Under the pieces are notes generated by a model. The model worked only from the letters and a program-made list of their open reading frames with translations, had not been told where the DNA came from and searched no databases. The translations under genes were made by a program, and so were the position numbers. DNA of 64,000 nucleotides from an uncultured Flavobacteriaceae bacterium. GTDB lineage: Bacteria > Bacteroidota > Bacteroidia > Flavobacteriales > Flavobacteriaceae. The stretch is from assembly GCA_947504035.1 (NCBI GenBank), contig CANNGA010000010.1:62001-126000 (forward strand), given 5' to 3'. How positions within the stretch are numbered: position 1 is the stretch's first letter; every line of letters begins with the position of its first letter. Of this stretch, positions 44,523 to 47,943 are shown one piece after another.

Positions 44523-46328
44523 ATGACGACTTACGCTAAGGATTCAAGTCATAAATCATCGCCGGTACTTGAAACCAACTCCCAATCGGTTCAATTTAAA
44601 GATAATCGTGAGGCACATGCCTCCCAAAATCGCATGAAGACTGCAATAGACACTAGTGCTAGAGTGGCTGCTCAAAATGATATAGCAGATACGATTTCTA
44701 AAGCTGCTATTCAACGTAAAGCTAATACTACAGGTTTACCCGATCAATTAAAAACAGGTATAGAACATTTATCTGGAATAGACATGAGTGATACGCGGGT
44801 GCATTATAATTCTAGCAAGCCTGCACAACTTAACGCCCATGCGTATGCGCAAGGAACAGACATACATATGGCACCTGGGCAGGAAAAGCATTTAGCGCAC
44901 GAGGCATGGCATGTGGTACAACAGAAGCAAGGACGGGTACAACCCACAACACAGTTAAAAAGTAAAACATTAATAAATGATGATGTAAGCTTAGAGCGTG
45001 AAGCCGATATTATGGGGGCAAAGGCGATGCAAGGTGCAGACGGGAGTACTCATAATCTATTGAAAGCTTCTAAAGCAAATGGACCAATTCAACGATATAG
45101 TGTAAGTGGTGATTGGAAAATTTCTGATGATGTTACGTTTGCACTTAAAGGCAAAAAGCACAAATTTTACGCTACAGAACCTCAAATTGATAAATCCAAT
45201 AAAATGCTAAAACTTTCTGGTAGTAAAGGCTCTTTAATTCATCTTACTAAAGGTTCCAATAAAAACGTAGAAGGCGTTGCCATGAAAAAAGTGGTGCCAT
45301 CATTAGATGCTGGAGCTTTAGCGCGCTTTAGCCAGTATAGTCATCATCAAGAATTAACAGCCAATAATACAGATAGATTTAAACTATGGAGAGATTGTGA
45401 GCGGGCTTCTGAAGCAGTAACAGGAACGGAAGATAATGAAAATAGGAGGGCTAAAATTTCATCTACAGGGGCTAGTCACGGTTTAAAACTTGGTGGAAGC
45501 CGTAATGCGCTTAAGGATGATACAGCACATTCTTTAACGGCACAAATTTACATGTTTAATTTGGCCCCTTTTTTAGCAACTAAAGCCCAGTCTGATCCAG
45601 CAACTTATATCAACTTAGATCTATTGGAGGCAGGGGATTATGCAGATAATACTTTTGCAAGCACGGAGAATAATTCTGCTAGAGCTTTAAGGGTCTATAA
45701 CGCATTAAAGCCAACAGCTAAGGAAGCTTTCGATAAATTTGCTAAAATTAATGATTATGCGCTTCCAGAAGTAGGGGATTCTTATGTGATTTCCTCTGAA
45801 ACTGAAATGCCTGGATTTGAGGAGATAGATGATGAAGCATGGCAATTTCATTGGGGAGGTGTTATAATGCGAGCAGGGCATGACGTGGCAACATTAGAGA
45901 GTGAATCTTCTGGAGATCCTGATGATATTGATCATAAATGGAAGTTTGGTGTTAACGGTACAAAAAAAGCAAATGGGATTATTACAGGAGACAGCTTTAA
46001 TAAAATACATTTAGATACAGAGTTGCATGGAACAAAAACCACAACAATAGCCGTAACGAATGCGCATACTCCCAAAGATGCTCGTGATTTTGCCAAACAA
46101 GATTATCCAGATCAACTTAAAGTAAGACTAGAAGCTATGGAGGGTAGTGACGCGCAATATCAAAATTTAAAAAACCAATGGGACACAGATTATACCACAT
46201 GGTTAGAAGCAGTAGATGTTTTTTTAAGTGATGCTTCTCGATTAAAGGATTTTCAGAAAAATGTAATGACTGAAATACGAACAGAATTAACAACCTTAAA
46301 AACAAGACGTGATCTCTTAAATGATTGA
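44523..46328 (+). CDS. DUF4157 (eCIS core domain) protein with unassigned C-terminal region
   Basis: This 601-residue protein has a variable, polar N-terminus of about 65 residues, then the DUF4157 domain at about residues 70-145. That domain includes IDMSDTRVHY, AYAQGTDIHM and the zinc-peptidase motif H-E-A-W-H at residues 126-130, followed by SLEREADIMGAKAMQ. DUF4157 is known from proteins linked to extracellular contractile injection systems and from polymorphic-toxin-like proteins. Residues 190-601 are not a family I can name. They contain Cys292 (DCERASEAV) and His443 in FHWGGVIMRAG followed by T-L-E-S, which might form a papain-like catalytic pair; that is inference. There is no signal peptide. 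No injection-system structural genes occur in this window. Confidence 0.85.
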   Translation: MTTYAKDSSHKSSPVLETNSQSVQFKDNREAHASQNRMKTAIDTSARVAAQNDIADTISKAAIQRKANTTGLPDQLKTGIEHLSGIDMSDTRVHYNSSKPAQLNAHAYAQGTDIHMAPGQEKHLAHEAWHVVQQKQGRVQPTTQLKSKTLINDDVSLEREADIMGAKAMQGADGSTHNLLKASKANGPIQRYSVSGDWKISDDVTFALKGKKHKFYATEPQIDKSNKMLKLSGSKGSLIHLTKGSNKNVEGVAMKKVVPSLDAGALARFSQYSHHQELTANNTDRFKLWRDCERASEAVTGTEDNENRRAKISSTGASHGLKLGGSRNALKDDTAHSLTAQIYMFNLAPFLATKAQSDPATYINLDLLEAGDYADNTFASTENNSARALRVYNALKPTAKEAFDKFAKINDYALPEVGDSYVISSETEMPGFEEIDDEAWQFHWGGVIMRAGHDVATLESESSGDPDDIDHKWKFGVNGTKKANGIITGDSFNKIHLDTELHGTKTTTIAVTNAHTPKDARDFAKQDYPDQLKVRLEAMEGSDAQYQNLKNQWDTDYTTWLEAVDVFLSDASRLKDFQKNVMTEIRTELTTLKTRRDLLND

Positions 46329-46521: not shown

Positions 46522-47943
46522 TTAGTTAATTGTTGCCCTTATACTAAAGAATAGTGGTTTGAAATTTTTAGAAAAAGTGTACTTAATATTGAATTGCCCA
46601 TTGTTAAGATAGTTTTCTAATAATGTCTTGTTAATATCAGAATCAGGTTTTATATCTAAAATTTTTAGTTGTCCAGTCGGCTCTACAGTAATATAAATTT
46701 TAATTCTGGTACTATCTAAATGTTTAGGTATGTGTTTAGATATAAATTTAGATAACTCTTTTTGTAGCTTTTGTATTAATACAATCTTTGAAACTTTTTT
46801 ATTGTTGAGATAAACCGGAGATTTATAATTAATTTCAAGATTACAATTAAGTACAGTTATATCTTCATTGAAGTTATTTAAGAATTTCATGTAGTACCTA
46901 AAATTGGGATTCAAGGTATCTACAGGTATACTATTATAAGGTAATAATTTTAATGTTTTTTTCAACTTCTTGTAAGTGTTATTGAAAAAAGAATTTTGAG
47001 GAGATCTTTTAGTTGTTAGTTTATCGTTATTTTCTTTATCATCAATACAATTATAATCATATCCGTCAACTATATATTTTTGTTGTTCGATTTTAAATTT
47101 AACTTCTAGGTAATTAGTAGTATCTGAAGTTTTTATAGTTATAGTGTCGAAATTGAGATGCTTTTTAAAGTGTGAAGAAACAGGATTGTCAAATAAAAGA
47201 CGATTATTTTTATTTAAATCGTCGTAAGCAGGATATATATATTTCCCCGTTTTTATTAGGCTACTGTAAAAATTAAACTTATGCTTATAATGTCGATGAC
47301 TACTAGGCGCTATAATAGGTAATTTAAGCTGATTTAAAGTTGAGTTTAATATGTTTTTAACTTTAGGGTTTTTAATATTAGAAGATACATTTGAAATAAC
47401 GCCACTACTGTCTATAAGAATCGAAACATAGGTTTTTTTGGGAAGTGAAGGTATCCATTGATGGTTTGCTATAAAATTTTTGGCAATTTTATGCTTTAAA
47501 TTGACATCGATGCATTTGGTAATTTGATGGTAAGTGTCAATTTTTTGGCAATTTTTTAAAGTAGGAGGACGGTAATAATCAAACTTAATAGACTTATTTA
47601 TTATTGTAGCTCCATTGGTGCCTTTTTTTAAAACAATAATTTCATAAGTGTTCTTAATATCTACATTATTAGGCGCAATTAAATGCAGCGGCATTTTAAT
47701 AAAAGCGCGTTTTAGTAATGCATATCCCTTATCTCTTTTGGGGATATTAATTCTTAAATTGATGATGCTGTCATTTTTATTAATCTGGAAAGAGACTCTA
47801 CCATCTTTTTTTAGTTTGAAAAGATGTAAACTGCTGTACAAGTGGTCATGAAAATGCTTATAGAGAAGCGTGTTTTCTATTTTATCAGTAGCAGCGAAAC
47901 CTATCTTAGCAATGCATAGAAAAACAAGAAACATTTTTTTCAT
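46522..47943 (-). CDS. Secreted protein with TonB C-terminal-like segments
   Basis: This 473-residue protein has a signal peptide (MFLVFLCIAKIGFA) and no other membrane segment. Two regions resemble the TonB C-terminal fold: YVSILIDSSGVISNVSSN in the first half and IYITVEPTGQLKILDIKPDS near the end, the latter preceded by VYLNNKKVSKIVLIQKL. It is rich in Lys, Asn and Ile and more AT-rich than neighbouring genes. The fold assignment is based on pattern only. Its function is unknown. It is followed by the small basic gene and preceded by the esterase gene (33-base gap), all on the minus strand. Confidence 0.6.
   Translation of the reverse strand: MKKMFLVFLCIAKIGFAATDKIENTLLYKHFHDHLYSSLHLFKLKKDGRVSFQINKNDSIINLRINIPKRDKGYALLKRAFIKMPLHLIAPNNVDIKNTYEIIVLKKGTNGATIINKSIKFDYYRPPTLKNCQKIDTYHQITKCIDVNLKHKIAKNFIANHQWIPSLPKKTYVSILIDSSGVISNVSSNIKNPKVKNILNSTLNQLKLPIIAPSSHRHYKHKFNFYSSLIKTGKYIYPAYDDLNKNNRLLFDNPVSSHFKKHLNFDTITIKTSDTTNYLEVKFKIEQQKYIVDGYDYNCIDDKENNDKLTTKRSPQNSFFNNTYKKLKKTLKLLPYNSIPVDTLNPNFRYYMKFLNNFNEDITVLNCNLEINYKSPVYLNNKKVSKIVLIQKLQKELSKFISKHIPKHLDSTRIKIYITVEPTGQLKILDIKPDSDINKTLLENYLNNGQFNIKYTFSKNFKPLFFSIRATIN

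Follow-up and report, generated by a model that had tools for sequence, protein, structure and literature searches.

A DUF4157 protein of an uncultured flavobacterium as a probable cargo effector of a contractile injection system encoded on another contig

Background

In AlgoCIS, an extracellular contractile injection system (eCIS), DUF4157 proteins fill the tube and are lost on contraction (PMC8894135). Two of these proteins, Cgo1 and Cgo2, consist of an N-terminal region, a central DUF4157 domain and a variable C-terminus. The gene considered here (44523..46328, + strand) encodes a protein with the same arrangement, also in a bacterium that has an eCIS. It lies in a 64,000-nucleotide stretch of DNA from an uncultured Flavobacteriaceae bacterium; this whole stretch, called the window, represents positions 62001-126000 of contig C10 in a 4.23 Mb genome of 73 contigs. 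Unlike this gene, those for Cgo1 and Cgo2 are situated inside the eCIS cluster, and the C-terminus of Cgo1 is a predicted metalloprotease (PMC8894135), whereas the window protein carries a Cys-His-Glu domain.

Another protein of this general type, EAT14 from Chitinophaga rupis, combines DUF4157 with a cysteine enzyme at its C-terminus, one that belongs broadly to the papain/transglutaminase kind. However, EAT14 has a recognised transglutaminase-like fold with the order Cys298, Asp397, His410 (PMC11297309). This Cys-Asp-His order is not found in the window protein, in which the corresponding candidates are Cys292, His443 and Glu459.

We propose, with a probability of about 0.72, that the window protein is an eCIS cargo effector that is loaded in trans and whose C-terminal domain is probably a CHAP/papain-type cysteine amidohydrolase that uses these three residues. 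The leader and the DUF4157 module (residues 1-189) would mark the protein for the tube of the eCIS whose genes are on a different contig. After injection, residues 190-513 would act as the amidohydrolase, with Cys292 as the nucleophile, His443 as the base and Glu459 orienting the histidine. The substrate would be peptidoglycan or a protein amide in the target cell, two types of target that we consider about equally likely.

Organization of the protein

The open reading frame (ORF) begins with ATG and specifies 601 amino acids, arranged as leader, DUF4157/eCIS_core, C-terminal Cys-His-Glu domain and helical tail; all of the features below are on the + strand. The leader (residues 1-62, 44523..44708) has no Pfam domain and contains the sequence VQFKDNR at residues 23-29. 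By analogy with the systems described in PMC11297309 and PMC8894135, it is probably the loading region; the strict leader motif is present in 14 of 116 DUF4157-type proteins. An IQR sequence (residues 63-65, 44709..44717) follows; it is the upstream one of two copies of a [VI]Q[RKLM] motif that flank DUF4157. The match to eCIS_core (PF13699; residues 72-137, 44736..44933) is above the curated cut-off (E 4.9e-11, 43.1 bits versus 22) and contains the HExxH zinc motif, HEAWH, at residues 126-130 (44898..44912), which confirms the DUF4157 assignment made in an earlier, sequence-only reading of this DNA. The pattern HE.[WTA]H is present in all 116 DUF4157-type proteins examined, the window protein among them. 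LEREAD (residues 157-162, 44991..45008) might provide a third metal ligand, although this is a guess. A second IQR, within GPIQRY (residues 189-191, 45087..45095), is the downstream copy of this motif and is located where the effector domain begins.

The conserved C-terminal domain, which has a CHAP-like layout, extends from residue 190 to residue 513 (45090..46061), as judged from alignments, profile searches and the predicted structure. Residues 514-601 (46062..46325) are predicted to form a helical bundle. In a six-row alignment, the relative at locus L003 aligns throughout this tail and that at L023 aligns in part, while those at L008, L071 and L081 end or were cut earlier.

Conservation of a candidate active site

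The C-terminal region has no significant match in Pfam, NCBIfam or PADLOC, in agreement with the sequence-only reading, which could name no family for it. Nevertheless, an alignment of eight sequences from three phyla, with pairwise identities of 18 to 82%, contains 17 invariant positions among 324, including Cys292, Asn410, Trp440, His443, Asp454, Glu459 and Trp473. Six relatives are outside this count: L019, L047, L076, L016 and the second gene of L003, which were represented by fragments or align poorly in the Cys region, and L113, which was compared by eye only. When the fragments of the first five are added, His443 and Glu459 remain invariant (10 of 10 rows), and Asp454 is conserved in at least 90%. 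Comparison of the close with the distant members by hhalign gives a probability of 95.1% (E 3.2e-8), and a five-row profile of the domain finds two genomes of the same order that were outside the profile (E 3.9e-60 and 5.4e-60). These profile matches, together with three candidate catalytic residues that are invariant in eight sequences, argue that the C-terminal region is more than chance.

Cys292 (45396..45398), the candidate nucleophile, is the single cysteine of the whole protein and opens a predicted helix within DCERASEAV, which starts at residue 291. His443 (45849..45851), the candidate general base, is within a predicted strand (FHWGG, from residue 442), and Glu459 (45897..45899), the candidate third catalytic residue, is in the next predicted strand (TLES, from residue 457). 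The order that is characteristic of clan CA, Cys, then His, then Glu, Asn or Asp, is thus present and is invariant in all eight close members. The sequence-only reading had pointed to the same cysteine, histidine and TLES at these positions, with the cysteine at a helix start and the histidine in a strand. Both the conservation and the predicted secondary structure agree with it on these points.

That reading had further compared the layout with papain-like or NlpC/P60-like enzymes. A CHAP-like arrangement fits better than an NlpC/P60-like one. NlpC/P60 peptidases share the papain-like order of Cys followed by His, and their third residue is usually His. This is the case for Spr (PMC4126393). 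The missing third residue of the window protein, in contrast, is most likely Glu459. The CHAP domain of LysK has its Cys in a helix and its His and Glu in consecutive strands, as here, and its His-to-Glu spacing is 17 residues, compared with 16 in the window protein (PMC4126393); this correspondence is the reason that we favor a CHAP-like layout. Unlike CHAP domains, with which it has no detectable sequence similarity, the window protein contains a long insert between Cys and His.

An eCIS in the same genome

When the whole genome was searched for sheath, tube and tape-measure families, matches were found on contigs C4 and C9 and none on C10. For these three families, this agrees with the lack of an apparatus in the window that had been noted from the sequence. 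Contig C4 has the single sheath match, which is under the cut-off of that family, and two tube matches that are over it. A third, weak tube match on C9 is TssD. Between about 215.1 and 236.0 kb of C4, ORFs match Pvc16_N, the sheath C-terminal domain, two T4_gp19 tubes, CIS_tube, hub/spike, gp25, CIS_TMP, AAA and DUF4280. In addition, a 1207-aa ORF of this cluster matches TssF weakly, and a 956-aa ORF has no Pfam match. A GH18 gene (L087:17023-18738) adjoins the cluster; similar genes are present in DUF4157 loci L027, L030, L061 and L075.

Among 12 genomes of the genus, only the window's own contains eCIS_core, and again only this one contains CIS_TMP. A hydrolase gene, one of the neighbors on the upstream side of the DUF4157 gene, occurs in 10 of the 12. 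In the nine genus mates examined around it, the order tilS-ade-hydrolase is kept, and neither half of the DUF4157 gene nor the next downstream genes of the window are present at that site. Thus, in this sample of the genus, both the gene and the machine are peculiar to the window's species. The sequence-only reading had left two options, an effector whose gene lies apart from those of its machine, or a system that stands on its own. The eCIS cluster on C4 and the restriction of DUF4157 and CIS_TMP to one of 12 genomes support the first at the level of the genome, and the presence of the cluster leads us to reject a free-standing system without an injector.

The genome encodes one other DUF4157 protein, on contig C5 and away from the eCIS cluster (L088:9086-11236, 716 aa). 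Its C-terminus differs from that of the window protein and has no significant Pfam match.

Relatives of the C-terminal domain

A search of genome contigs with the whole protein found relatives in at least 562 of the 579 candidate stretches, in most cases by way of the DUF4157 part, and 77 distinct loci were kept. The C-terminal part alone (tblastn) matches L003, L008, L071 and L023 from those loci, plus L081. A profile search of the gathered DUF4157 loci found, besides such close members, the distant relatives L019, L003 (second gene), L047, L016 and L076 (E 8e-7 to 0.0055), with the next match at E 1.1; L114 was taken to be a spurious partial match and was dropped. L019 has no DUF4157 core, but its leader is similar by eye. 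Within the window's phylum the domain is rare: the counts, each including the window's own genome, are 2 of 395 phylum genomes (single sequence), 3 of 395 order genomes (profile) and 1 of 12 genus genomes.

A search of plasmids found none with the domain of the window or of L047. With L008 as the query, 13 plasmid records are found, three of which, from Streptomyces clavuligerus, contain the C-terminal part, and the other 10 the N-terminal part only. On the S. clavuligerus plasmid pSCL4 (L115:2813-4312), the same domain follows an N-terminus with VQR motifs and no visible DUF4157 core. There was no match to the domain in phages; in viral contigs, patterns matched, and no relative was confirmed. 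In Tenacibaculum agarivorans (L003:4864-14720), four DUF4157-type ORFs lie in tandem, the last reaching the end of the locus, and the first two contain relatives of the C-terminal domain. In the Magnetospirillum relative (L071:9321-9902), the C-terminus is extended by a region that includes a Cys-containing motif and has no significant Pfam match.

Four relatives, in L008, L023, G277 and G685, adjoin eCIS-type genes, and the L071 copy adjoins an AAA gene of eCIS type; within the 14.7 kb of L003, no eCIS gene was matched. Proteins of the genome's own eCIS cluster give one match or more in 50 of 78 loci (L002 to L079; tblastn), and CIS_TMP is present in 10 of the 12 host genomes searched.

Evidence that weighs against the assignment

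A number of results count against the proposed effector and its chemistry. Two concern the machine: the cluster on C4 has no Baseplate_J match and no visible tail fibre, and its sheath is over the cut-off through the C-terminal domain only. Others concern location. The gene and the eCIS are on separate contigs; if these adjoin, the distance is still about 94 kb or more. A genome with an eCIS is one mark of an eCIS-associated toxin, and it is found here; a location near the operon is another, and it is not. As reported in PMC11297309, 88% of known eCIS-associated toxins are within about ten genes of the operon, which is typical rather than defining. Furthermore, the genomes of Magnetospirillum (L071) and Marinibactrum (L076) gave no match to CIS_TMP.

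The fold is also weakly assigned. No Pfam CHAP, NlpC/P60 or papain match was found among the members scanned (E up to 1; for distant members, 5). Alignment by hhalign with one phage CHAP domain, whose gathered relatives were from staphylococcal phage only, was negative (probability 0.2%). The predicted model has a low-confidence insert within the Cys-to-His stretch. Foldseek found no match in PDB at E <=0.001 with models of residues 190-601 or 190-513, and every structural match has Z <5; for these two reasons the fold assignment is weak. CHAP domains are nevertheless the best structural matches. The weak Foldseek list for residues 190-601 includes some papain-like entries (PeiR, staphopain and CtaG, which we take to be one) among unrelated ones, and that for residues 190-513 consists mostly of kinases. 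In BFVD, where there is nothing at E <=0.001, weak rows include some endolysin and CHAP entries. The VIA-align list for residues 190-601 was filled by the C-terminal helical bundle, and a sequence search of PDB with the five-row profile gave no match at E up to 10. Three family matches were discarded: Ubiquitin_2 in the C-terminal region (E 0.061 and 0.11, below the cut-off), DUF3632 in one relative (best E 0.0023; also E 0.0077, 17.1 bits versus a cut-off of 23) and NCBIfam LAT_fam (13.1 bits versus 520.8).

Possible targets and alternative explanations

The effector may be antibacterial, with the C-terminal domain acting as a peptidoglycan amidase or endopeptidase and a small downstream gene in some relatives conferring immunity; we hold this tentatively. 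Besides the CHAP matches, it is favored by a homologous gene of 120-136 aa that immediately follows the effector gene in L008 (9390-9752, +), G277 (L116:14826-15233, +) and G685 (L117:7070-7480, -), and which we regard as a candidate immunity gene. In G277 and G685 its product has, by eye, a lipoprotein-like start; however, no signal peptide is evident for the copy in L008. Across 119 sources (the window and 118 loci, some of which overlap), this gene is above threshold solely beside the C-terminal domain. However, it is present in only 3 of 13 genomes or records and was not found in the window's own genome or in nine others, including L003, L023, L071 and the S. clavuligerus plasmid, and the GH18 gene beside the eCIS could hint at chitin-bearing targets.

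With the same reserve, the domain may instead be a protease, deamidase or transglutaminase whose substrate is a protein in the cytosol of a eukaryotic target. EAT14 is a precedent, a DUF4157 protein whose other domain is transglutaminase-like with the residues Cys-Asp-His. It is toxic to both yeast and E. coli, and it reduces SRE signalling in human cells (PMC11297309). However, no match to the Pfam family of EAT14 was seen. The lack of a match to the candidate immunity gene in the window's genome is in keeping with a eukaryotic target, but recognisable immunity genes are often lacking for verified antibacterial eCIS toxins too (PMC8213781).

A further proposal stems from short motifs on either side of DUF4157. 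A pattern was used to select 115 DUF4157-type ORFs from L002-L079. Of these, 86 have [VI]Q[RKLM] no more than 25 aa ahead of TGLP (9.2 expected from shuffling) and 77 have it no more than 60 aa beyond LE.EAD (12.6 expected from shuffling), whereas just 6 have it in the segment from the core to LE.EAD. Because the motif was chosen after the sequences had been viewed and the ORFs are related, these shuffles overstate its weight, most of all upstream. The rate in the remaining C-termini predicts a background of 6% per 58 positions. When 112 C-terminal domains are grouped into 85 clusters, 58 have the motif in at least half of their members. Relatives that lack DUF4157 have similar motifs ahead of the enzyme (by eye). 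The copies that flank DUF4157 might be cleavage or recognition sites. DUF4157 itself, as a metallopeptidase, or else a protease of the host or the eCIS, would then cut at the downstream copy (GPIQR-Y in the window protein) and so free an undescribed Cys-His-Glu toxin family that has an immunity partner in some lineages. We consider this rather unlikely. Growth inhibition by Cgo1 is reported to be independent of its DUF4157 metalloprotease motif (PMC8894135), which does not speak for cleavage. The titles and abstract openings of the open-access literature searched contain no description of a CHAP-like eCIS effector or of the VQR motif.

It is improbable that the C-terminal domain is no enzyme and that its conserved Cys, His and Glu instead coordinate a metal or have a structural role. 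The weak fold matches would be compatible with such a role, as would the fact that Asn410, Trp440, Asp454, Trp473 and others are equally invariant. However, a lone Cys that opens a helix, followed by strands that carry His and Glu, is what is expected of a CHAP-type center, and it is kept at 20-28% identity to the window protein. Finally, delivery by a type VI system is very doubtful: TssD and VgrG-type genes are present on C9 and DUF4157 is sometimes part of type VI effectors (PMC11297309), but DUF4157 and CIS_TMP share one single genome of the genus and the relatives sit in eCIS clusters.

Elsewhere in the window, a 473-aa ORF (46522-47943, - strand) with a signal-like start and no Pfam match lies within the 2-kb stretch of lowest GC (0.287).

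Significance

As reported in PMC11297309, most predicted DUF4157 effectors (983 of 1130) lack annotation of any second domain. The proposed Cys-His-Glu effector domain names one such second domain and its likely active site, behind different N-terminal modules in three phyla. The bracketing motif provides a concrete test of the job of the DUF4157 module; if the cleavage proposal were true, one rule would join one loading module to dozens of unrelated toxins. Finally, the arrangement of the gene and the cluster on separate contigs suggests that the gene for an eCIS effector can lie at a great distance from those of its machine. This bears on searches for effectors, in which closeness to the operon is given weight (PMC11297309).
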